Made by a program: the position numbers and the translations under genes. Of a stretch of 43,938 nucleotides of DNA, positions 1-43,495 are shown piece by piece. The stretch comes from Sideroxydans sp. (GTDB lineage Bacteria; Pseudomonadota; Gammaproteobacteria; Burkholderiales; Gallionellaceae). The stretch covers positions 1 through 43,938 of the forward strand of contig JAQUAD010000020.1 of NCBI GenBank assembly GCA_028687425.1. The letters run 5' to 3'. Each line of letters starts with the position of its first letter. The stretch's first letter is position 1. The notes under the pieces are model-generated. The model did no database searches and was not told the origin of the DNA. It was given only the letters and a program-made list of their open reading frames with translations.

Positions 1-763
<763 letters not shown>

Positions 764-8324: not shown

Positions 8325-9709
8325 GCGAGCAACCTGCACAGGTGAAGACCAAACTCGACTGGTCGGCCTACGAGAGCTACGGCAGTTTCGGCTTCGACAG
8401 CTTCGGAGACTTCGGCGGCGGCGAAACCGCGCCGGCTACAGGCGGCGGCTATGCCAAGGCAGCGGCGGTGTGCATGGGCAAGCGCCAATGCCAGAAGAAG
8501 GACAAGGGCGTGATGTGCCCCAGCTATCGCGTCACCGACGAAGATAAACATTCCACCCATCACCGTGCCGTCACGCTCAAAGCCGCGCTCGAAGGCAAGT
8601 TCGGCGAGCATCCTTTCCTGAGCGAGGAGCTGACCGAGGCGATGGAATTGTGCGTGAGCTGCAAAGGCTGCAAGAGCGAATGTCCGCATGGCGTGGATAT
8701 GGCGCTGCTGCGCGTGGAAGCGCTGGCACAACGCTGGCAGCAACTCGGCCGCGTACCGTTGCGCGAGCGGCTGTTCGCGCATACACCGCGCCTGGCCAGA
8801 CATCTGAAGCTGCTCAACTGGGTAGGCGCGTTGCGCAAGCGCGTGCCGCTGCTCGCAAAGACGATGGAGCGCTGGCTGGGCATCGCGGCAAGGCGTTCAT
8901 TGCCCAAGGCGGCAAGGCAGGATTTCCTTTCCGCTGTGCCCCATACTTTGCCGGGGAACGTGGCTGCGCGCGAAGTGGTGCTGCTGGTGGACACCTTCTC
9001 CAACCATCTCGATCCGCAGATCGCGCAGGCGGCGCTGGATGTGTTGCAAAGCGCCGGCTACACGGTACACATCGCGCAACCTGCTGCAGGTGAGCGCGCA
9101 CTGTGCTGCGGCCGTACCTATCTCTCCAGCGGGCTGATAGACGAAGCTCGCGCCGAGGCGACGCGTCTGCTGGATGCGCTGTCGCCTTTCGCTGAACGCG
9201 GCCTGCCCGTCATCGGGCTGGAACCTTCCTGTCTGTTGATGCTGCGCGATGAGTATCACGCGCTGGGTCTGGGCGAACGCGTCACGAAGCTTGCCAACGC
9301 TGCCGTGTTGCTGGAAGAGTTCCTCGCGCGTGAACACGACGCCAAGCGTCTCACCTTGCCGCTCCAACCGCTGAGCGGAAAAGTGCTGGTGCACGGTCAT
9401 TGCCATCAAAAGGCTTTCGGCGTGATGCCCGCGATGGAGAAAGTTTTGAAGCTGGTGCCGGAATTGCAGGTGGAACTCATCGAATCGAGCTGCTGCGGCA
9501 TGTCGGGTTCGTTCGGCATGGAGGCGGAGCATTACGAGGTGTCGATGCAGATGGGCGAATTGTCTTTGTTGCCCACGGTGCGTGCCGCCGCAACGGACAC
9601 ACTGCTGATCGCCAACGGCACCAGCTGCCGCCACCAGATCCGCGACGGCGCACAGCGCGAGGCGACGCATCTGGCACAAGTACTGCAGCGCGCTATCCTT
9701 CGCCGATAA
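8321..9709 (+). CDS. Fe-S oxidoreductase with two CCG domains (GlpC / D-lactate dehydrogenase C-terminal type)
   Basis: 462 aa. After a Gly/Ser-rich N-terminus, two ferredoxin-like cysteine clusters appear: C-x5-C-x7-C (CMGKRQCQKKDKGVMCP) and CVSCKGCKSECPHG. Two CCG domains follow, marked by CCGRTYLSSG and SSCCGMSGSFG. This layout equals the C-terminal half of FAD-linked D-lactate or glycolate dehydrogenases, or the GlpC subunit, in which electrons pass from a flavoprotein to quinone. No FAD-binding oxidase domain is present in this protein or its neighbours, so the partner is unknown. Its start overlaps the GST-like gene, and the in-frame extension to 8246 lies inside that gene. Probably cytoplasmic or membrane-associated. 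Confidence 0.85.
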   Translation: MSEQPAQVKTKLDWSAYESYGSFGFDSFGDFGGGETAPATGGGYAKAAAVCMGKRQCQKKDKGVMCPSYRVTDEDKHSTHHRAVTLKAALEGKFGEHPFLSEELTEAMELCVSCKGCKSECPHGVDMALLRVEALAQRWQQLGRVPLRERLFAHTPRLARHLKLLNWVGALRKRVPLLAKTMERWLGIAARRSLPKAARQDFLSAVPHTLPGNVAAREVVLLVDTFSNHLDPQIAQAALDVLQSAGYTVHIAQPAAGERALCCGRTYLSSGLIDEARAEATRLLDALSPFAERGLPVIGLEPSCLLMLRDEYHALGLGERVTKLANAAVLLEEFLAREHDAKRLTLPLQPLSGKVLVHGHCHQKAFGVMPAMEKVLKLVPELQVELIESSCCGMSGSFGMEAEHYEVSMQMGELSLLPTVRAAATDTLLIANGTSCRHQIRDGAQREATHLAQVLQRAILRR

Positions 9710-9820
9710 CTTATCGCGATACACTGCGACCATATTTCCCGCGCCCGACCCGAAATGCGCAATCCGGGTCAGGCTGCACCTTTTCCCGTACGGTATCTTG
9801 CCGCTCAAGGAGATATGGCA

Positions 9821-10687
9821 GTGAATACATCCAGGGCAGACCTGTACGCGGCACGATTCAACAAGGTGTTCGATTTCATCGATCAGCACCTGGACGAATC
9901 GCTATCCGTGGAGCAATTGAGCCAGGTCGCGCACTTCTCGAAATTTCATTTTCACCGTCAGTTCTCCGATTACTGCGGCATCAGTGTGATGCGGTACATC
10001 CAGTTGATGCGTTTGAAGCGTGCCTCTTACCGGCTGGTCTTCAACACGCTGGAACGGATCACCGACATCGCGCTGGATGCCGGATTCGAGAATCCGGAAT
10101 CGTTCTCGCGCGCGTTCAAGAACACTTTCGGGCAGACCCCGAGTGAATTCAGGCAACAGCCGAAGTGGCAACCCTGGAACGAGCGCTACCGGTTCCCCAA
10201 CATAGACAGGAGCAAACAAATGGAAGTGAAGATTTGGGAATTCGAGGAAACGCCGATCGCGGTACTGGAGCATCGCGGCCCGCCCGATCTGGTCAATGAT
10301 TCGGTGGTGCAGTTCATCGACTGGCGCAAGACCAGCGGTCTGTCACCGATCAAGACCAGCGACACCTTCGGCATCGTCTACGACAATCCGGACACGACGG
10401 CCCCTGCGGATTTCCGCTTCGACATCTGTGGCTCGGTAACGGAAGCAGTGCCCGCCAACCCGCAGGGTGTGGTCAACAAACGCATCCCGGCAGGACGCTG
10501 CGCGGTGGTGCGCCATCAGGGTTCGCATCAACGTATCGGTGAAGCGGCGTATTACTTGTATCGGGACTGGTTGCCGAACAGCGGAGAAGAGTTGCGCGAT
10601 TTCCCGCTGTTCTTCCATTACCTGAACCTGATGCCGGACACACCCGAGCATGAATTACTGACCGATGTGTATCTGCCGCTGAAGTAG
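9821..10687 (+). CDS. AraC-family regulator with GyrI-like effector domain
   Basis: N-terminal AraC/XylS DNA-binding domain with two HTHs (about 10-115: LSVEQLSQVAHFSKFHFHRQF, written as a domain, and ITDIALDAGFENPESFSRAF). A GyrI-like/SOUL small-molecule-binding domain follows (about 135-285, beginning MEVKIWEFEETPIAVLEHRG). This order is that of the Rob/SoxS-GyrI fusions that respond to hydrophobic or toxic compounds. The GTG at 9821 sits 8 nt after AAGGAG; an ATG at 9815 in the same frame is only 2 nt from it, so GTG is preferred. It is a single gene followed by hairpins. Targets unknown. Confidence 0.88.
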   Translation: MNTSRADLYAARFNKVFDFIDQHLDESLSVEQLSQVAHFSKFHFHRQFSDYCGISVMRYIQLMRLKRASYRLVFNTLERITDIALDAGFENPESFSRAFKNTFGQTPSEFRQQPKWQPWNERYRFPNIDRSKQMEVKIWEFEETPIAVLEHRGPPDLVNDSVVQFIDWRKTSGLSPIKTSDTFGIVYDNPDTTAPADFRFDICGSVTEAVPANPQGVVNKRIPAGRCAVVRHQGSHQRIGEAAYYLYRDWLPNSGEELRDFPLFFHYLNLMPDTPEHELLTDVYLPLK

Positions 10688-10837: not shown

Positions 10838-10852
10838 TGGCGCGATTATTGC
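10838..10852 (+). promoter_or_regulatory. sigma54 (-24/-12) promoter of the SIR2-NifZ-SagB operon
   Basis: TGGCGC-GATTA-TTGC keeps the invariant GG and GC with correct N10 spacing. It ends 38 bp before the SIR2-like start, giving a leader of about 27 nt. No perfect TGT-N10-ACA was found upstream; TGT-N10-ACC at 10777-10792 is a one-base miss placed closer than usual. Confidence 0.8.
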
Positions 10853-10890
10853 GAATGGTATGGCATCCCTACTGACAGGAGTCATACCCA

Positions 10891-11748
10891 ATGAGCACTG
10901 CATTCGAAGACATCTTTTCCGGCCTGCGCGATGGCAGCGTCGTTCCTTACCTCGGACCGGGCGCGCTGAGCGGCGTGACCGATGCTAACGGCAAGGCCAT
11001 TCCCGCCGACAGCGACAGCCTGATCCTGGCGATGAACAACGGCCAGCCGATGGCGCCCAAGCTGATGTACGAATTTCCGCGCGCGGCGATGAACGTGGAA
11101 TTGAAGCGCGGCCGCAATGCGGTGAACAAGTTCCTCGATGCCACCTATAAAGACACGCAGTGGAGCACCTCGCCCCTGCATGCCTGGCTGGGCGCACAGA
11201 AGCTGCCCTACATGATCGACGCCAACCGCGACACGCAGATGCAACTGCAATATGCCGGCACGCCGCACACCCTGGTGGTGGGCATCGCACGCATGGCGGG
11301 CACGGCCTTCCGCTTCAAACTGTTCCATTACGACGGCAGCAGCTACACCGCCGTCGAGCAGGAAGCCGTCGACAGCAGCCTGCCCATCCTGTTCAAGCCC
11401 CTGGGCACGCCGACACCGGAATCGAGCTACATCGCTTCCGATGCCGACTTCGTCGATTACATCACCGAGCTGATGGGCGGCTTCGCCATCCCGTCCTTCA
11501 TCAAGCGTTCGCGCCAGAACAAGCGCTATGTGACGCTGGGTCTTCGCCTGAACCGCGACACCGACCGCATGGTGTTCTCCGACGTGATCTTCGGCGCGGA
11601 CAAACCTGCCGGCTGGGCGCTGATCCCGCACCCGACCGACAAGGAGAAGCGTTACCTCGATCGCCTCAACATCGAGATCGTGAGTGCCGATGTGTCCGAC
11701 TTCCTCAGCGCGGCGCAAGGCGCCGGCGCAGCACTGGAAGCTGCATGA
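10891..11748 (+). CDS. Nif-associated SIR2-like domain protein
   Basis: 285 aa. The N-terminus (FSGLRDGSVVPYLGPGALSGV) resembles the nucleotide-binding opening of SIR2-like proteins with a GPG in the loop. The rest (HAWLGAQKLPYMIDANRDTQMQL, TPHTLVVGIARMAGTAFRFK) is a divergent Rossmann-type core. Catalytic NAD-dependent deacylase residues cannot be confirmed by eye. Genes of this type are found in nif clusters of several proteobacteria, without known function. It is the first gene after a sigma54 promoter and its stop overlaps the next start (ATGA), so it is co-expressed with hemerythrin, nifZ and the SagB-like gene. A role in protecting or modifying nitrogenase is inference only. Confidence 0.75.
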   Translation: MSTAFEDIFSGLRDGSVVPYLGPGALSGVTDANGKAIPADSDSLILAMNNGQPMAPKLMYEFPRAAMNVELKRGRNAVNKFLDATYKDTQWSTSPLHAWLGAQKLPYMIDANRDTQMQLQYAGTPHTLVVGIARMAGTAFRFKLFHYDGSSYTAVEQEAVDSSLPILFKPLGTPTPESSYIASDADFVDYITELMGGFAIPSFIKRSRQNKRYVTLGLRLNRDTDRMVFSDVIFGADKPAGWALIPHPTDKEKRYLDRLNIEIVSADVSDFLSAAQGAGAALEAA

Positions 11749-12155
11749 CGCATCCGGCTGCATGGAACGACGCGCGCCATACACTGGGCATGGCGGAATT
11801 CGACGATACCCACCGCGAATTCATCGAGCAGGTGGCCGCACTCAACGCAGCGAGTGTGGCCGAATTCCCGGCGCTGTTCCAGACGCTGGTGAACCATACG
11901 CGTGAACATTTCATCGCAGAGGGTAAACTGATGCGCGAATCGAAATATCGCGGCCTGCCGGAACACGAGGGCGAGCATCACCGCGTGCTGGGTGAGCTGC
12001 AACAGCTCAACCGCAGTCTCAAGCGCGGCCACCTGCCGCTGGTGCGCGCCTATGTGAAGGAAGGCCTGATGGATTGGTTCGACACACACGTCGCGATGAT
12101 GGATGCGGCGCTGGCGATGCATCTTAAGCGTCTGGCGAATAGCCACCCCGGATAA
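11745..12155 (+). CDS. Bacteriohemerythrin (stand-alone)
   Basis: 136-residue four-helix diiron O2-binding protein. Ligands: H23 (DDTHREF), HxxxE 55-59, HxxxH 74-78 and HxxxxD 115-120. All are present, so O2 binding is expected. Starting inside the stop of the SIR2-like gene (ATGA), it belongs to the sigma54 operon. In a nif operon an O2 buffer or O2 delivery role that shields nitrogenase is plausible; this is inference. No signal peptide. Confidence 0.9.
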   Translation: MTHPAAWNDARHTLGMAEFDDTHREFIEQVAALNAASVAEFPALFQTLVNHTREHFIAEGKLMRESKYRGLPEHEGEHHRVLGELQQLNRSLKRGHLPLVRAYVKEGLMDWFDTHVAMMDAALAMHLKRLANSHPG

Positions 12156-12175
12156 TGGAATTCGCCATGCACGCT

Positions 12176-12235
12176 TCCCCCACCCCAACCCTCCCCCGGA
12201 GGGAGAGGGGGCGAACGAATCGCTACGCGAGTTTC
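12176..12235. repeat. Dispersed intergenic repeat, copy 1
   Basis: Lies between the hemerythrin and nifZ genes: a CCTCCCCCGGAGGGAGAGG-type palindrome followed by GGCGAACGAATCGCT and ACGCGAGT. The same block, GGCGAACGAGTCGCT-GCGCGAGT, recurs at 39690-39730 inside the end of nifL. Confidence 0.65.
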
Positions 12236-12261
12236 AGATCAACGAAACAGAAGGAGACGGC

Positions 12262-12531
12262 ATGAGCATGTACAACATGGGCGACATGGTGTTCGCCGCG
12301 ATCGACCTTTACAACGAGCCGGTGGAAGAGACCGGCGAGAGCGGCATCCCCGACATGGAGGTGGGCGCATTGCTGGCCGCAGCCGGCACGCGCGGCGTGG
12401 TGGTCAATGTCGGCCACGCCAAGGAGCTGCCGGACGAAGAGATCTATCTGGTGCGTTTCGAGATCGACGCCGAGGGCACGCTGGGTGAACCCATCGGTTG
12501 TCTGACGGACGAACTGAGCGGACTGAATTAA
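12262..12531 (+). CDS. nifZ: NifZ-family protein
   Basis: 89 aa matching the NifZ domain: GDMVFAAIDLYN, then EVGALLAAAGTRGVVVNVGH, EIYLVRFE and a final GEPIGCLTDEL. NifZ assists maturation of the second P-cluster of the MoFe protein in Azotobacter. The ATG follows AAGGAGACGGC; the long in-frame extension upstream is the repeat at 12176-12235 and is not credible. It is shorter than some NifZ proteins, which carry an extra C-terminal tail. Third gene of the sigma54 operon. Confidence 0.85.
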   Translation: MSMYNMGDMVFAAIDLYNEPVEETGESGIPDMEVGALLAAAGTRGVVVNVGHAKELPDEEIYLVRFEIDAEGTLGEPIGCLTDELSGLN

Positions 12532-12533
12532 GG

Positions 12534-14066
12534 ATGAAGGATGCACGCGCTGCGTGCGTGATGGATTATCACGCGCGCAGCAAACACGCACTCGATCGCT
12601 ACGCTGCCGGGCCCGGCACGCTGGACTGGGATGCGCAGCCCGCCGCGTTCCGCTACTGGGCAGGTTGCACGCAGACCGCCTTGCCGCGCGATGTCGTCGT
12701 CGATGACATCGCTTGGGGCGCGCTCGGTGCGACGCGCGCAGCATTGCCATTCGACACCCGCACACTCGGCTCCTTCTTACGCCTGTCGCTAGGCCTCACT
12801 GCATGGAAGGAGTACGCCGGTTCGCGCTGGTCGCTACGCGCGCATCCTTCCTCCGGCAATCTGCACCCGACCGAAAGCTGGCTCATCACTTCGCAAGTGG
12901 CGGATGTCGCCGACGGCCTGCACCACTATCAGAACTTGCAGCACGCGCTGGAGCGCCGCGCATGGAACGAAGAAGCCTCTGCGCCCGGCGTGTGGCTGGG
13001 CTTCACTTCCATCCATTGGCGCGAGGCGTGGAAGTACGGCGAGCGCGCCTTCCGTTATTGCCAGCTGGACATGGGCCATGTGCTGGCCGCCGTGAGTTAC
13101 GCGGCAGCGCTGCACGGCTGGCAACCGCGCTTGCTGGCGCTGGATGAACACAAGGTCGCGCGCACACTCGGCGTGGATCGCGATGCTGATTTTGCAAACG
13201 TGGAAGCTGAGGAAGCGGAAGTGATCGTGGCGCTGCATGCCGACGGCGATGCACCCACGACATGGCAACACTACGCAGGCACACCCGGCCTGCTCGACCC
13301 GAAGCCCTTATACCAATGGCCGGTGATCAATGAAGTGAGTGCTGCCACGCGCGGCACGCCGCCTGCGACACCGGCAGCGACGCAGACCGTCGCCACGCAC
13401 GCGAACGAATCAGACATCCGCGCCACACAAGTGATATTGAAGCGCCGCAGCGCGCAAGCCTTCGATGGTGAGTCAGTGATGCCGCAGTCGTTGTTCAAAC
13501 GCATGCTCGCTGGTCTGCTGGCAGGCGGCTCGCCGGTGTGGAATCTGTGGCCGCATACGCCGCGTGTGCATCCGGTGTTGCTGGTGCATCGCGTGGAAGG
13601 AGTCGCGCCCGGCGTATATGTGTTGCCGCGTTGCGATGCATCTATCGAACCCTTGCGCGCCGCGATGCGCGACAGCTTCAACTGGCAACGCGCCGATGAG
13701 TCGCTGCCGCTGTACCAGCTCATCGCTGCGCGCGCAGGAAAAACCGCGCGCACGCTGTCCTGCCATCAGGACATTGCCACGCATTGCGCCGTCACCTTCA
13801 TGATGGTGGCCGAGTTCGCCGCGCCCATCGAGCAAGATCCTGCCGCCTACCGCCATCTGCATTGGGAAGCGGGCATGCTGGGCCACATCGTCACGCTGGA
13901 AGCCGAAGCCGCCGGTTGGCGCGGCACCGGCATCGGCTGCTTCTTCGACGATGCCGACCACGAAGTGCTCGGCTTCAAGGACACGCAGTTCCAGGTGATC
14001 TATCACTACGCGGTCGGCATGGCGCTGGACGATGCGCGCATCCTGACCCTGCCGGCCTATGCATGA
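12534..14066 (+). CDS. SagB/ThcOx-type FMN nitroreductase-family protein, two-domain
   Basis: 510 aa with two nitroreductase-like halves. The first (about 55-230) includes LRAHPSSGNLHPTESWLI, the SagB signature. The second (about 300-500) starts ATQVILKRRSAQAFDGES and holds VTFMMVAEFA and EAGMLGHIVTLEAEAAGWRGTG-like cofactor contacts. SagB/ThcOx enzymes oxidise azolines in RiPP pathways using FMN, but related two-domain proteins occur in nif clusters with no RiPP partner. The ATG at 12534 begins 3 nt after the nifZ stop; an ATG at 12561 (MDYHARSK) also suits the family N-terminus. The reaction is unknown; a flavin redox role for nitrogenase is inference. Confidence 0.8.
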   Translation: MKDARAACVMDYHARSKHALDRYAAGPGTLDWDAQPAAFRYWAGCTQTALPRDVVVDDIAWGALGATRAALPFDTRTLGSFLRLSLGLTAWKEYAGSRWSLRAHPSSGNLHPTESWLITSQVADVADGLHHYQNLQHALERRAWNEEASAPGVWLGFTSIHWREAWKYGERAFRYCQLDMGHVLAAVSYAAALHGWQPRLLALDEHKVARTLGVDRDADFANVEAEEAEVIVALHADGDAPTTWQHYAGTPGLLDPKPLYQWPVINEVSAATRGTPPATPAATQTVATHANESDIRATQVILKRRSAQAFDGESVMPQSLFKRMLAGLLAGGSPVWNLWPHTPRVHPVLLVHRVEGVAPGVYVLPRCDASIEPLRAAMRDSFNWQRADESLPLYQLIAARAGKTARTLSCHQDIATHCAVTFMMVAEFAAPIEQDPAAYRHLHWEAGMLGHIVTLEAEAAGWRGTGIGCFFDDADHEVLGFKDTQFQVIYHYAVGMALDDARILTLPAYA

Positions 14067-14159
14067 CCGCCTGCGACATGGAGCCGGGGATGCAGCGAAC
14101 TCTTTGCACACCATGCACTCAGAGTGCACTCTAGCAATGAACTCAGTAAAGGAACACGC

Positions 14160-14630
14160 ATGAACGACAACCAACTCCGCTGCTGGCTTTCGCAAGCCCG
14201 TTTCCACGTCAGCGATCCGGTTGAGACCGACATCAACCGTCCGCTGGCCAACAGCACCACTCCGCTGATGTATGCCGCGCAAACCGGCGATCTGGACGCG
14301 ATCAAGTCACTGTTGAAGCGCGGTGCCGACCCGGCCTTGCTGAATACGGATGGCAACGGCGCCTTGTGGTTCGCCTGTTTTTCCGGCAGCGAGGCATGCG
14401 TGGCCAAACTCATCAAGGCCGGCGCACCGCTGGACACGCAGAACGTGAACGGCGCGACCGCGTTAATCTATTGCGCTTCGGCCAGTAAGGCACCGCTGGT
14501 GAAACTGCTGCTGGATGCAGGCGCGAATACCGTGCTGAAGACCCACGACGATTTCACCGCACTGGAACTGGCGGCCGATCTGGAATGCCTGCGCCTGCTC
14601 AAGAACGCCAGCAAAGCTGTCCATGCCTGA
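14160..14630 (+). CDS. Ankyrin-repeat protein of the nif operon
   Basis: 156 aa with about three to four ankyrin repeats. TTPLMYAAQTGDLDAIKSLL and KRGADPALLNTDGN start the first; NGALWFACFSGSEACVAKLI, NGATALIYCASASKAPLVKLL and FTALELAADLECLRLL follow. A binding scaffold for another protein, not an enzyme. AAGGAACACGC precedes the ATG. It is 93 bp downstream of the SagB-like gene and overlaps the next gene. The partner is unknown; the co-transcribed SIR2-like or SagB-like proteins or nitrogenase itself are candidates. Confidence 0.88.
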   Translation: MNDNQLRCWLSQARFHVSDPVETDINRPLANSTTPLMYAAQTGDLDAIKSLLKRGADPALLNTDGNGALWFACFSGSEACVAKLIKAGAPLDTQNVNGATALIYCASASKAPLVKLLLDAGANTVLKTHDDFTALELAADLECLRLLKNASKAVHA

Positions 14631-14940
14631 GACACCATACTCCGTTGCCAGCGTGCAGCACCGCGTGATGGGTCAGCAGATCCGCCTGCGTTTCGCAGAC
14701 GACATCGAGCTGCGCTTCACGCCTGCCGAGGCCTCCAGCCTGTCGCTGGCACTAGTGGCGGTGAGTCTCGGCATCAGCCCCGAGCGCGAGATCTACATGA
14801 GCCCCATCGCCAGCGATGCGGCGTTCGTCGGTGCCGTGACGGATGCGGGCATGCGGATCGACAGCACCGGAACAGGCATCTGTTTGCAATGGGCAGAGGT
14901 GGAACAACTGGCTGCAGCCCTTGCGACTGCGATCGGTTGA
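14623..14940 (+). CDS. Small conserved nif-operon protein, function unknown
   Basis: 105 aa, starts inside the end of the ankyrin gene (8-bp overlap), so it is translationally coupled. Segments HRVMGQQIRLRFADDIELRF, ASSLSLALVAVSLGISPE and EREIYMSPIASDAAFVG suggest a small alpha/beta fold. No family is recognised with confidence. Last gene of the sigma54 operon; the next gene is convergent, 20 bp away. Confidence 0.65.
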   Translation: MPETPYSVASVQHRVMGQQIRLRFADDIELRFTPAEASSLSLALVAVSLGISPEREIYMSPIASDAAFVGAVTDAGMRIDSTGTGICLQWAEVEQLAAALATAIG

Positions 14941-29465: not shown

Positions 29466-29960
29466 TCAGGCGGCCTTCAGTTTCCCGCACAAGGATCGCG
29501 AAGCGGACATCTCCGGAAACTCCTCGTTGGCACTCTTTTCCCAGGCCGCAGTCGAGAGTCCCACCTTGATCAGATCCTCGCTGTCCACGCCGTGGAAGTG
29601 GTCGGTCATCCAATGTTTGAGGAAGTACAGCATGTCGAAATAGACAGGCAGATCATCCCGCAGGTGTTTCTTGTGCAGCAGGTCCAGATGTTCGAGCAGC
29701 TTGCGGTTCTCGTGCCGGTGCGCGTCCAGGTCCTTGTGCTGCAACTGCTCCAGCAAGCGTTCCTCCAGCGCGAAGTGCTTGCTGCAATAGTTCATCAATG
29801 CATCGAGGATATACACGATGGTGGTGTTGGCCTTGCGTTCGAAGGCGGCGATAAACAGGCAATTGAGCATGTTGACCAGCTCCTTGTGCTGTTCGTCCAG
29901 ATGACGGATGTTGACGCTGTATGCATCCTGCCATTCAAAGAATGTATTCCGGGTAGTCAT
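29466..29960 (-). CDS. Bacteriohemerythrin A of the pair, one ligand altered
   Basis: 164 aa: hemerythrin domain at about 8-130 plus a C-terminal extension (LIKVGLSTAAWEKSANEEFP) shared with its neighbour. Ligands seen: H25 (LDEQHKEL), HxxxE 62-66 and HxxxxD 121-126. The HxxxH helix reads DAHRHENRKLL: H81 is followed by N85 where the paralog has histidine, with an extra H83 between. The Shine-Dalgarno site AAAGGAGAACAC fixes the start at 29960. A sigma54 promoter lies at 30005-30019. Likely an O2 buffer or sensor expressed with nif; altered iron binding is possible. Confidence 0.9.
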   Translation of the reverse strand: MTTRNTFFEWQDAYSVNIRHLDEQHKELVNMLNCLFIAAFERKANTTIVYILDALMNYCSKHFALEERLLEQLQHKDLDAHRHENRKLLEHLDLLHKKHLRDDLPVYFDMLYFLKHWMTDHFHGVDSEDLIKVGLSTAAWEKSANEEFPEMSASRSLCGKLKAA

Positions 29961-30004
29961 GTGTTCTCCTTTCTGATCGCACATATGTAGATGGTTTTCA
30001 TGCA

Positions 30005-30019
30005 GCAAACATCATGCCA
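30005..30019 (-). promoter_or_regulatory. sigma54 promoter of hemerythrin A
   Basis: Reading leftward TGGCAT-GATGT-TTGC: GG and GC are spaced correctly and the -12 is about 45 bp from the start codon. Confidence 0.82.
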
Positions 30020-30086: not shown

Positions 30087-30590
30087 TCAAGCCGCCTTCC
30101 ACAGCTCCCACCATTTCTTGGAGGCTGACATTTTGGCGAATTCCTCATTCGCGCTCTGTTCCCATGCCGCAGTCGAGAACCCCGCCTTGACCAGGTCGTC
30201 GCTGTACAGGATGTCCACGCCCTGGATGTGTTCCTTCAACCAGTGCTTGAGGAAACTCAGCATCTCGAAATAGATGGGCTTGTCTTCCAGCAGGTGTTTC
30301 TTGCAGAGTCGATCCAGCTGGTCCAGCAGCTTGCGATGCTCTTCCTTGTGCGCGGCGAAATCCTTGTATTTCGCCTGCTGCAGCAGACGCTCTTCCAGAG
30401 CGAAATGCGTCTGCGTATAACTCATCAGCGCATCGAGGATACCCGCGATCACCTTGTCTCCCTCGCGCTTGGATACCGCGATAAACAGGCGATTGAGGAT
30501 ATTGACCAGCTCCTTGTGCTGGTCGTCGATGGTCTTGATATTGACGCTGTATGCGTCGGTCCATTTGAAGAAGACTTCCTGGTTCGACAT
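30087..30590 (-). CDS. Bacteriohemerythrin B of the pair
   Basis: 167 aa, about 60% identical by eye to the downstream 164-aa protein over the whole length, so the two are a tandem duplication. All diiron ligands are present: H25, HxxxE 62-66, HxxxH 81-85 (AAHKEEHRKLL) and HxxxxD 121-126. The shared C-terminal tail (DLVKAGFSTAAWEQSANEEF) is not part of a minimal hemerythrin and may bind a partner. CAGGAGAACAC precedes the ATG. Its sigma54 promoter is at 30635-30649. Confidence 0.92.
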   Translation of the reverse strand: MSNQEVFFKWTDAYSVNIKTIDDQHKELVNILNRLFIAVSKREGDKVIAGILDALMSYTQTHFALEERLLQQAKYKDFAAHKEEHRKLLDQLDRLCKKHLLEDKPIYFEMLSFLKHWLKEHIQGVDILYSDDLVKAGFSTAAWEQSANEEFAKMSASKKWWELWKAA

Positions 30591-30634
30591 GTGTTCTCCT
30601 GAATTGATTGGTGCACAACTGCCCCCCTCATTCA

Positions 30635-30649
30635 GCAAGCATCATGCCA
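30635..30649 (-). promoter_or_regulatory. sigma54 promoter of hemerythrin B
   Basis: Reading leftward TGGCAT-GATGC-TTGC, differing by one base from the promoter of hemerythrin A and at the same distance from its start codon. No TGT-N10-ACA found nearby. Confidence 0.82.
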
Positions 30650-41287: not shown

Positions 41288-43480
41288 ATGCCCCCGAGCT
41301 CGTCACTGTTGTATGAGATCGGCATCGACGATGCGGAGATCGCGCAGCGCAAAGCCTTTCTGACTTTCGATGAAGAGGATGCAGCCCTGTTGCTGGAGCT
41401 GCATGGCCTGCTCAAGGACAAACGTGGCGAACTGATCGACATCTTCTATGCACACCTGCTGCAGTTCCCGGAGATACGTCCGCTGCTCGGCGACGATGTG
41501 CATCTGGAAAGATTGAAGCAGGCGCAGCTGACCTATTTCGATCAGCTGACGCAGGGCAGATACGATGCCGGCTACATCGAGAACCGGCTGCATGTCGGCG
41601 TCGTGCACCAGCGCGTGGGCCTCACGCCCAAGTGGTACATGAGCGCCTACTGCAAGTACATGAACGAGGTGGTGCCGCATGTGCTGATGCATTACCGGGA
41701 TGACGAGCCGCGCGGGCATCGTGCCGTGCGCGCCCTGCTCAAGGTGGTGTTCTTCGACATGGGGCTGGCGCTGGACACCTACTTCCATGCCGAACACAAG
41801 GCATTGTCGCTGGCGCGCAGCTACACCGAACAGATCGTCAGCAACATGCCGATCGGCTTCATCGTGCTGGATGAAACGGGCCGCATCCGTCTGGTGAACA
41901 ACGCCGTGTTGCAGATGTTCGAGATGACCGGCAATGATGCCTGGCACAACCGCTCCCCCGGTGCATTCCTGGGCGCGCATGAACTGGATGACGCAGTCTT
42001 CCAGGTGCTCAAGACGCAGCAGCACCTGCATGAGTTCGGGTTCGGGCTTGACGTTGCAGGGAAGCGGCGCGCATTCCTGGCCGACATCTCGCTGGCACAG
42101 ATGGGCGAAGAGCGCGTGGTGCTGTTCATGATCCAGGACATCACGCTGCGCAAACAGTCCGAGGACGAGATCCATCGCCTCGCCTTCTATGATTCACTGA
42201 CCCATCTGCCGAATCGTCGCCTGTTGCAGGAACGGCTGCTGCAAAGCATGTCCATCAGCTCGCGCAGCGGCAAGCATGGCGCGGTGATCTTCATCGACCT
42301 GGACAACTTCAAGACGCTGAACGATACGCAGGGGCACGATGTCGGCGACGAACTGCTGCAGGAAGTGGCCACACGCCTCACGCGCAATGTGCGTGAAGGC
42401 GACACCGTGTCGCGTCTGGGCGGTGACGAATTCGTGGTGGCGCTGGAATCGCTGAGCGGCATCGAAAAGGAAGCCGCCAATCAGGCGGAGACCATCGCCG
42501 AAAAGATACGCGCGGAGCTGAGCCAGCCGTATCAGTTGAAAACCATTGAACACAACAGCTCGCCCAGCATGGGCGTCAGCCTGTTCCGCGGCCACCAGAA
42601 CAGTATCGATGAAGTGCTGAAGCAGGCAGACCTTGCCATGTACCAGGCCAAATCGACGGGACGCAACCGCGTGTGTTTCTTCGATCCTGCCATGCAGGTC
42701 GAGATGGAGTACCGCGCCGAACTGGAAAAGGACCTGCGCGCTTCGGTGCGGCGCGACCAGCTGGAGCTGTACTACCAGATGCAGGTGGACGACAACGGAC
42801 GCATCATCGGTGCCGAAGCCTTGATCCGCTGGAACCATCCGCTGCGCGGCATGGTGTCCCCGGCCGAATTCATCCCGCTGGCGGAAGAGATCGGCATGAT
42901 CCTGCCCATCGGCGACTGGGTGATCGAACAGGCCTGCAACCAGCTCAAGCGCTGGGAGATGGACGTTGCGATGCGCGACATTGTGCTGTCGGTCAATGTC
43001 AGCCCGCGCCAGCTGAGCCAGCCGTGGTTCGTCGAGCAGGTCAATGAATGCATCGAACGCAGCGGCATCCGCCCTTCCCGCCTGAAGCTGGAACTCACCG
43101 AGAGCTTCATCCTCGACGATGTGGAAGAGGCCATCGTCAAAATGCGGGAATTGCGCCACATCGGCATCCGTTTCGCCATGGACGATTTCGGCACCGGCTA
43201 TTCATCGCTGGCATACCTGAAGCGTTTGCCGCTGGAACAACTGAAGATCGACCAGTCGTTCGTGCGCGACATCGCGACCGACAAGAACAACAGCATCATG
43301 GTGCGCACCATCATCAACATCGCCAACAACTTCGGCCTGGAGATCATCGCCGAAGGGGTGGAGACGGATGATCAGCTCGCCTTCCTGCGCCAGTACGGAT
43401 GCAACCGTTACCAGGGCTACCTGTTCGGCAAGCCGGTACCGCTGGCCGAATTCGAACGCCTCTGTCATGCCATGGAGTAG
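41288..43480 (+). CDS. Globin-coupled PAS-GGDEF-EAL protein (c-di-GMP turnover)
   Basis: 730 aa. Globin-coupled sensor domain at about 10-170 with the proximal heme histidine in VVHQRVGLTPKWYM (H107). Then PAS at about 180-290, GGDEF at about 295-465 (GGDEF 378-382 intact, I-site REGD 369-372) and EAL at about 475-725 (EALIRW at 510, DDFGTGYSS, KIDQSFV). Both catalytic domains appear intact, so it could make or degrade c-di-GMP according to O2 binding. It begins 2 bp after the nifA stop, so it shares the nifLA transcript. Such a placement ties c-di-GMP to nitrogen status. Confidence 0.92.
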   Translation: MPPSSSLLYEIGIDDAEIAQRKAFLTFDEEDAALLLELHGLLKDKRGELIDIFYAHLLQFPEIRPLLGDDVHLERLKQAQLTYFDQLTQGRYDAGYIENRLHVGVVHQRVGLTPKWYMSAYCKYMNEVVPHVLMHYRDDEPRGHRAVRALLKVVFFDMGLALDTYFHAEHKALSLARSYTEQIVSNMPIGFIVLDETGRIRLVNNAVLQMFEMTGNDAWHNRSPGAFLGAHELDDAVFQVLKTQQHLHEFGFGLDVAGKRRAFLADISLAQMGEERVVLFMIQDITLRKQSEDEIHRLAFYDSLTHLPNRRLLQERLLQSMSISSRSGKHGAVIFIDLDNFKTLNDTQGHDVGDELLQEVATRLTRNVREGDTVSRLGGDEFVVALESLSGIEKEAANQAETIAEKIRAELSQPYQLKTIEHNSSPSMGVSLFRGHQNSIDEVLKQADLAMYQAKSTGRNRVCFFDPAMQVEMEYRAELEKDLRASVRRDQLELYYQMQVDDNGRIIGAEALIRWNHPLRGMVSPAEFIPLAEEIGMILPIGDWVIEQACNQLKRWEMDVAMRDIVLSVNVSPRQLSQPWFVEQVNECIERSGIRPSRLKLELTESFILDDVEEAIVKMRELRHIGIRFAMDDFGTGYSSLAYLKRLPLEQLKIDQSFVRDIATDKNNSIMVRTIINIANNFGLEIIAEGVETDDQLAFLRQYGCNRYQGYLFGKPVPLAEFERLCHAME

Positions 43481-43495
43481 AGGCACGATTTTTGC
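43481..43495 (+). promoter_or_regulatory. sigma54 promoter of the Nif11-like gene
   Basis: AGGCAC-GATTT-TTGC keeps GG-N10-GC. It starts right at the stop codon of the globin-GGDEF-EAL gene, giving a leader of about 85 nt. No exact NifA site was found upstream. Confidence 0.72.

Follow-up and report, generated by a model that had tools for sequence, protein, structure and literature searches.

Two nif-linked gene modules joined behind a sigma54-type promoter in Sideroxydans: a candidate accessory locus of nitrogenase

Which role can a SIR2-fold protein, a hemerythrin (Hr), a short NifZ paralogue (NifZ2), a SagB-like protein, an ankyrin-repeat protein (Ank), and a small conserved protein have when they are encoded in one run in a nitrogen fixation (nif) region? 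This question is raised by positions 10838 to 14940 of contig JAQUAD010000020.1 (assembly GCA_028687425.1) from Sideroxydans sp. The window, i.e., the whole analyzed stretch of 43,938 nucleotides, corresponds to contig C31 in a draft genome of 2.79 Mb that is 99% complete; the host group is the Sideroxydans-like, iron-oxidising Gallionellaceae. An initial annotation had described the run as a sigma54-driven operon and proposed one nitrogenase protection or maturation module. Here, we find that the six genes do not go back to one ancestral unit but combine two older modules, SIR2-Hr and NifZ2-SagB-Ank-small. The module genes truly belong among the nif accessory genes and have received little study. 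With moderate confidence, we read the locus as a NifA/sigma54-type nitrogenase accessory locus in which two nif helper modules with the activities proposed below are joined.

Results

Gene content and layout

All six open reading frames were confirmed as co-directional on the + strand, with overlaps or short gaps and behind a -24/-12 site, as initially annotated:

10838..10853, + strand: sigma54 -24/-12 promoter, TGGCGCG-N4-TTGCG, 2 mismatches, position kept in relatives
10891..11748, + strand: SIR2-fold protein, catalytic His apparently lost; PF13289 SIR2_2, 17.9 bits (curated cut-off 24.5)
11745..12155, + strand: single-domain Hr with seven complete di-iron ligands; Hemerythrin 28.9 bits and TIGR02481 65.7 bits, both above cut-off
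12156..12261, no strand: gap between Hr and NifZ2 with a dispersed palindromic repeat (core 12189-12209), copies of which lie in the same genome
12262..12531, + strand: NifZ2, short NifZ paralogue; PF04319, 47.1 bits (cut-off 27)
12534..14066, + strand: SagB/ThcOx-type protein with two nitroreductase domains; TIGR03605, 87.9 bits (cut-off 78.4)
14160..14630, + strand: Ank of a nif-linked subfamily; PF12796 Ank_2, 78.9 bits (cut-off 27.3)
14623..14940, + strand: conserved small protein of 105 amino acids, family unassigned; homologues in family genomes, ratio of nonsynonymous to synonymous substitution rates (dN/dS) 0.18-0.31

The SIR2 and Hr genes overlap by 4 bp, the Ank and small genes overlap by 8 bp, and NifZ2 and SagB are spaced by 2 bp. 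Purifying selection acts on all six genes (dN/dS 0.02-0.31 in 26 comparisons of the window genes with up to five relatives). The 106-bp gap between Hr and NifZ2 is a late insertion because the Hr stop and the NifZ start overlap directly, without any gap, in five close relatives (L037, L038, L056, L064, and L067). The palindromic repeat inside it has 14 copies genome-wide at up to 2 mismatches; a reversed-pattern control gave 0.

Promoter and NifA sites

For comparison, 81 loci were used, namely the window and the best 80 of at least 554 stretches that encode SIR2 relatives in a genome scan. Mismatches were scored against the consensus of sigma54 -24/-12 promoters. The window contains 16 sites with up to 2 mismatches, whereas 12.8 are expected and 20 of 100 shuffles reach 16; hence, the window promoter alone carries no weight. 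Its position was therefore compared in 42 loci (the window, 40 of the 80 SIR2 loci, and L056), which had been chosen by hand before the test to span the range of relatives. In the range of -90 to -51 relative to the start codon, a site with up to 2 mismatches is present in 27 of these loci (0.06 expected) and one with up to 3 mismatches in 36 (0.43 expected from shuffles). An earlier version of the test, which accepted sites anywhere within 250 bp, gave 31 of 42 (0.32 expected). These expected values are rough because some loci are near-identical, some start codons were placed by offset, and single bases were shuffled. Even at 3 mismatches, L099, L114, and L156 have no site between -90 and -51, in the case of L099 because the start is misplaced. 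From this positional conservation, the sigma54 promoter ahead of SIR2 is real, and the run is sigma54-driven as first described. In addition, an exact NifA-type TGT-N10-ACA motif lies upstream in 18 of the 42 loci (1.8 expected).

Association with nitrogenase genes

Two genome samples were surveyed. In the family sample (120 genomes), any nifD/E match was counted as nif. In the phylum sample (397 genomes), nif meant nifD above cut-off (44 genomes) plus three drafts with nifE-like or partial matches (G000, G187, and G328); 28 further genomes whose nifD-like matches are weaker (E up to 0.001) were placed in the group without nif.

Within the family, SIR2 is found in 48 genomes and nifD/E in 50. 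SIR2 is present in 45 of the 50 nif genomes versus 3 of the 70 others (Fisher p 1e-23), and in 37 of the 38 genomes with nifD above cut-off. Strong SagB matches are confined to nif genomes here, with 33 of the 50 versus 0 of the 70 others. In the phylum, all 22 SIR2-positive genomes have nif (21 clear cases and G487, a weak 60-residue match), 19 of them with nifD above cut-off. The association gives p 2e-23 with the three partial-evidence drafts as nif and 1e-17 without them. The relation to nitrogenase claimed in the initial annotation is thus supported.

The gene neighborhoods point the same way. A core nif gene is encoded in 59 of the 81 loci, and a nif gene, draT, or draG in 65; among the 45 loci of at least 18 kb, 38 have the former and 39 the latter. 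In 42 of the 81 loci, including ones from Gallionellaceae, Thiobacillaceae, Chromatiaceae, and other groups, Hr follows SIR2 downstream at up to 1 kb. The closest named relatives of the window SIR2 protein are from Sideroxydans metagenome-assembled genomes (L082 and L107; 92% identity). Among plasmids, 29 records match, all with less than 60% identity (by first name word: Rhizobium 12, Sinorhizobium 7, Mesorhizobium 7, Methylococcus 1, Paraburkholderia 1, and Bradyrhizobium 1). SIR2 is located inside a nif cluster in all three plasmids inspected (Methylococcus EFPC2, R. tropici pRtrCIAT899b, and Paraburkholderia pBN1).

Several observations weigh against our reading of the locus. In the family, SIR2 occurs without a nifD/E match in three genomes (G059, a partial gene; G065; and G077, a broken gene), although the SIR2 contig of G065 encodes nifB, nifT, and two NifZ. 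Five genomes (G021, G049, G072, G093, and G101) have a nifD/E match without SIR2. In the phylum, SIR2 is missing in 25 of the 47 nif genomes and so is not required for nitrogenase in general. No core nif gene lies on the stretch in 22 of the 81 SIR2 loci, 7 of which are at least 18 kb long. The window's own promoter at 10838 has no exact TGT-N10-ACA motif upstream. SagB is only enriched with nif in the phylum: it occurs in 39 genomes, 22 with nif and 17 counted as without. Among the phylum nif genomes, SagB is found in 7 of 22 with SIR2 versus 15 of 25 lacking it (p 0.08), which is no positive association. The initial annotation had suggested a survey for co-occurrence of the six genes and had named scattering of the non-nifZ genes without nif as an argument against its proposal. 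In our survey, SIR2 tracks nif, whereas SIR2 and SagB do not go together at the phylum level; such scattering is partly seen for SagB because 17 of the 350 non-nif phylum genomes carry relatives.

As an observation in its own right, the SIR2 genes at L053 (G077) and L052 (G059) are broken or partial in genomes without a nifD match, as if decay follows nif loss.

Properties of the six proteins

SIR2: The PF13289 score of the window protein is below cut-off. Of five relatives, three score above it (two at 68 bits and one at 27.2) and two below (20.7 and 18.3). The window protein has the SIR2 fold. Position 171, the register of the His in the HG motif, is Leu, Met, Thr, or Val in 43 of 44 aligned rows. 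This register was judged from the Pfam-covered region and the secondary structure of the model. The profile alignments of SIR2 to KomC and ThsA end before or at the His motif and would place the His at position 148, where none of the 44 rows has one. As judged from the alignment, the catalytic His is lost, with no conserved His in either register. The NAD-site Asn of the TTNYD motif is kept as N112 in all 38 window-type rows and is replaced by Trp in all 6 rows of the other type. Because of the His loss, an enzymatic role of the NAD-linked domain named in the initial annotation is unlikely. That SIR2 works as an NADase or as an effector in defence and lies in the nif region by chance is very improbable: besides position 171, its occurrence is nearly restricted to nif genomes in both surveys, a sigma54 promoter is present, and a PADLOC search with the window protein gave no match at E 0.1. 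We set this possibility aside on the grounds of the His loss. Separately, in the draft genome G107 (L046; contigs C67 and C245), SIR2 of either type is encoded along with two copies of nifD; the genome holds two nif clusters, or its bin is mixed.

Hr: The TIGR02481 score compares with a cut-off of 51.75, while the narrower NF033749 gives 67.4, below its cut-off of 84. H23, H55, E59, H74, H78, H115, and D120 are invariant in 12 of 12 orthologues and form what we take to be the di-iron ligand pattern of O2-binding hemerythrins. Two further single-domain hemerythrins are encoded in tandem on the - strand of the window (29466-30008 and 30087-30638). For each, a -24/-12 site with 1 mismatch is present (30004 and 30634, respectively); this may be another hemerythrin locus of the nif region that is driven by sigma54. 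A hemerythrin in a nif cluster is named in a figure legend of PMC11208148, the available parts of which give no role. The part of the Sideroxydans ES-1 genome paper that was available (PMC3770913) reports nif clusters and many hemerythrins and does not describe the module of the window. NafH was also followed in the literature; the main text of PMC6016461, as available, does not use the word hemerythrin.

NifZ2: A separate NifZ of the same genome, with a score of 103 bits, is encoded on contig C60. In A. vinelandii, NifZ is reported to have a role in P-cluster maturation and to be not essential (PMC6484116 and PMC6016461, parts of the text).

SagB: Both halves of the protein match the nitroreductase 3eo7 in PDB, and K167-Y168 and R304-R305-S306 are invariant in 17 sequences. 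The TIGR03605 match above cut-off would fit a pathway for azoline oxidation in ribosomally synthesized and post-translationally modified peptides that is co-regulated with nif. We give this explanation hardly any credence. No YcaO partner was found in the draft genome by a search that covered YcaO and was not extended to the precursor peptide gene; the same search, used as a control, matches 5 of 14 known genomes. The peptide chemistry was set aside because YcaO is missing from the genome.

Ank: In nif loci elsewhere, homologues are neighbors of SagB or of SIR2. A putative relative in P. phymatum, Bphy_7751, is numbered near nifH; in nodules of a nifA mutant, its listed log2 fold change is -7.11 (PMC8305402, Table 1).

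Small protein: The gene is found in 29 of the 120 family genomes; in 28 of these, SagB also gives a strong match. The protein has no family match above cut-off.

Two modules and their joining

SIR2-Hr is widespread, mostly near nif. It stands alone in other Gallionellaceae, often downstream of nifHDK-draT. NifZ2-SagB-Ank-small, in turn, is placed after nifENX-fdxB in five further loci of Gallionellaceae (L048, L050, L055, L061, and L063); in L071 and L075, NifZ2 is present at that place without SagB. The six-gene run occurs in the window genome, G031, G060, G063, and G066, and five of the genes in G016, in which the small gene was not detected. When 54 SIR2 proteins are arranged in a tree, the six genomes with joined modules form a single clade with 100/100 support.

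Parts of the modules are also linked in other lineages, as follows from a rhodanese-Ank fusion directly downstream of SIR2 at L180 (genome G183; 8859-9860) and from a SagB-GlpE-hypothetical-Ank series beside nifH on the Methylococcus EFPC2 plasmid. At Mangrovimicrobium L114, Hr, Ank, SIR2, rhodanese, SagB, and NifZ2 surround nifHDK, with the small gene missing from the set. SagB adjoins SIR2 on the opposite strand in L152, and Ank genes lie near SIR2 on the Paraburkholderia plasmid pBN1. On the EFPC2 plasmid, L077 (4493-10008) encodes a response regulator, a truncated haemoglobin, a Rieske protein, an ArsC/Spx-like protein, SagB, GlpE, and Ank, divergent from nifH; we note it as a further accessory set.

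Could all six proteins work together as a single functional system or complex for nitrogenase protection or maturation? Their contiguous, overlapping genes, the clustering of all parts except the small protein at L114, and the fusion in G183 would suit such a system. Of the 33 family genomes with a strong SagB match, 31 also carry SIR2. However, 17 family genomes have SIR2 without a strong SagB, the phylum offers no positive association, and the modules are separate in the other Gallionellaceae loci examined. As the complete order is confined to one clade of six genomes, of which G016 lacks a detected small gene, we regard a single system as unlikely.

The opposite explanation is that module 2 (NifZ2-SagB-Ank-small) came to lie behind the SIR2-Hr promoter by accidental rearrangement and has no tie to SIR2-Hr. 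The restriction of the joined arrangement to one clade agrees with this, as do the five loci in which the module follows fdxB without a good -24/-12 site within 300 bp upstream of NifZ2. SIR2, however, is independently close to Ank or SagB in L114, L152, L180, and pBN1, and both modules are nif-linked regardless. An accident of this kind is a contender to be taken seriously, although we think it rather unlikely. Two joined helper modules, each linked to nif, remain the preferred reading.

Genomic context

Two genes at the start of the window belong to the nitrogenase system:

2..760, - strand: nifH, cut by the contig end; PF00142, 405 bits
849..1751, + strand: draT, dinitrogenase reductase ADP-ribosyltransferase; PF07357, 340.7 bits

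At the far end, an RnfD-family gene, a PAS-HATPase gene, a GAF-AAA-Fis gene, and a globin-coupled GGDEF-EAL gene are found; by domains and gene order, the second appears NifL-like and the third NifA-like. With nifH and draT on one side and the RnfD-, NifL-, and NifA-like genes on the other, the six-gene run thus sits within a nif region. The remaining nif genes of the genome are on other contigs (C103 with the nifE tail, nifN, nifX, and fdxB; C60 with nifW and the second NifZ). For nifD, no match was obtained in the draft genome, which we take as an assembly gap. The gene directly after the NifA-like gene encodes a Protoglobin-PAS-GGDEF-EAL protein (41288-43480), and a 1-mismatch -24/-12 site lies just behind it at 43481.

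In 8 of the 81 loci, draT immediately precedes SIR2 in the same orientation at less than 600 bp, so SIR2-Hr might serve the DraT/DraG switch. The non-catalytic fold, by binding NAD or ADP-ribose, would modulate the ADP-ribosylation of NifH, and Hr would report O2. Moreover, draT is encoded in 35 and draG in 27 of the 81 loci, and draT in 40 of the 43 family genomes with window-type SIR2. Among the 47 phylum nif genomes, by contrast, draT is rarer alongside SIR2 (9 of 22 with SIR2 versus 19 of 25 without; p 0.02), a negative association. draT is also missing in G183, G187, and G195, three of the six phylum genomes with window-type SIR2 (by score), and the proximity would be explained by shared linkage to nifH. 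We therefore consider a service to DraT/DraG improbable. An obligate co-occurrence of SIR2 and draT fails on the 9 of 22 SIR2-positive nif genomes.

Discussion

What remains from the initial annotation is the nif accessory link; a single six-gene system does not, as two modules were joined in one clade. Protection or maturation is our best functional guess for the module genes, and we infer the ligands, partners, regulator, and activities of both modules in the following proposal.

Module 1: Having lost the catalytic His, the SIR2 NADase fold is probably a non-cleaving binder of NAD(H), ADP-ribose, or a similar nucleotide. It may sense or sequester the nucleotide, and the single-domain Hr, able to bind O2, would act with it. 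On or near nitrogenase or the Fe protein, the two would form an O2- or redox-responsive pair for holding or protecting.

Module 2: NifZ2 and Ank are proposed to dock on immature or damaged nitrogenase. The SagB flavin protein, together with rhodanese where present, may carry out cysteine or sulfur chemistry for the assembly or repair of metalloclusters. In other lineages, rhodanese is encoded beside Ank or fused to it.

A further-reaching version is speculative, and we doubt it. Here, a disarmed defence-type SIR2 would be a pseudoenzyme that senses NAD(H) or ADP-ribose and, with Hr, makes the activity or repair of nitrogenase depend on O2 and redox state. NifZ2-SagB-Ank(-rhodanese) would be the linked flavin/sulfur repair arm, and the whole an undescribed safeguard system.

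Several nif-linked genes have no assigned role, and from these, the SIR2 without His, often paired with Hr, and NifZ-SagB-Ank are singled out here. No function of SIR2-Hr or NifZ2-SagB-Ank-small in print turned up in our literature searches. Should the modules protect nitrogenase or repair it when O2 is low, they would be candidate components for engineering nitrogen fixation that tolerates O2, and a defence enzyme fold would have been converted to a metabolic guardian.

Comparison with known systems

From the defence SIR2 NADases ThsA, KomC, and DSR2, the window SIR2 differs by the apparent loss of the catalytic His and by its near restriction to nif genomes. Closer in setting are the proteins annotated as SIR2 family protein in the nifB-nifZT operons of Rhodobacter capsulatus (Rcc03262), Rhodovulum, and R. 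tropici. The R. capsulatus protein, a putative relative, was present in the wild type and absent from a nifA double mutant (PMC6925177, Table 1). In Rhodovulum, a SIR2 family protein is named after nifT in a figure legend (PMC9412634). The available parts of both sources state no function for these proteins. On pRtrCIAT899b of R. tropici, a SIR2-like gene is also part of a nif operon, directly after nifT. This copy, however, is of the other type, being 22% identical to the window protein with Trp in place of Asn112, and neither Hr nor module 2 is annotated alongside, unlike in the window.

The window SagB resembles the SagB/ThcOx azoline dehydrogenases in its TIGR03605 match and in the 3eo7 relative of both halves; it differs in that YcaO was not found in its genome and in its nif linkage in Gallionellaceae. 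NifZ2 shares the PF04319 domain with the P-cluster assembly factor NifZ of A. vinelandii but is a shorter paralogue, and the window genome retains another NifZ next to nifW.

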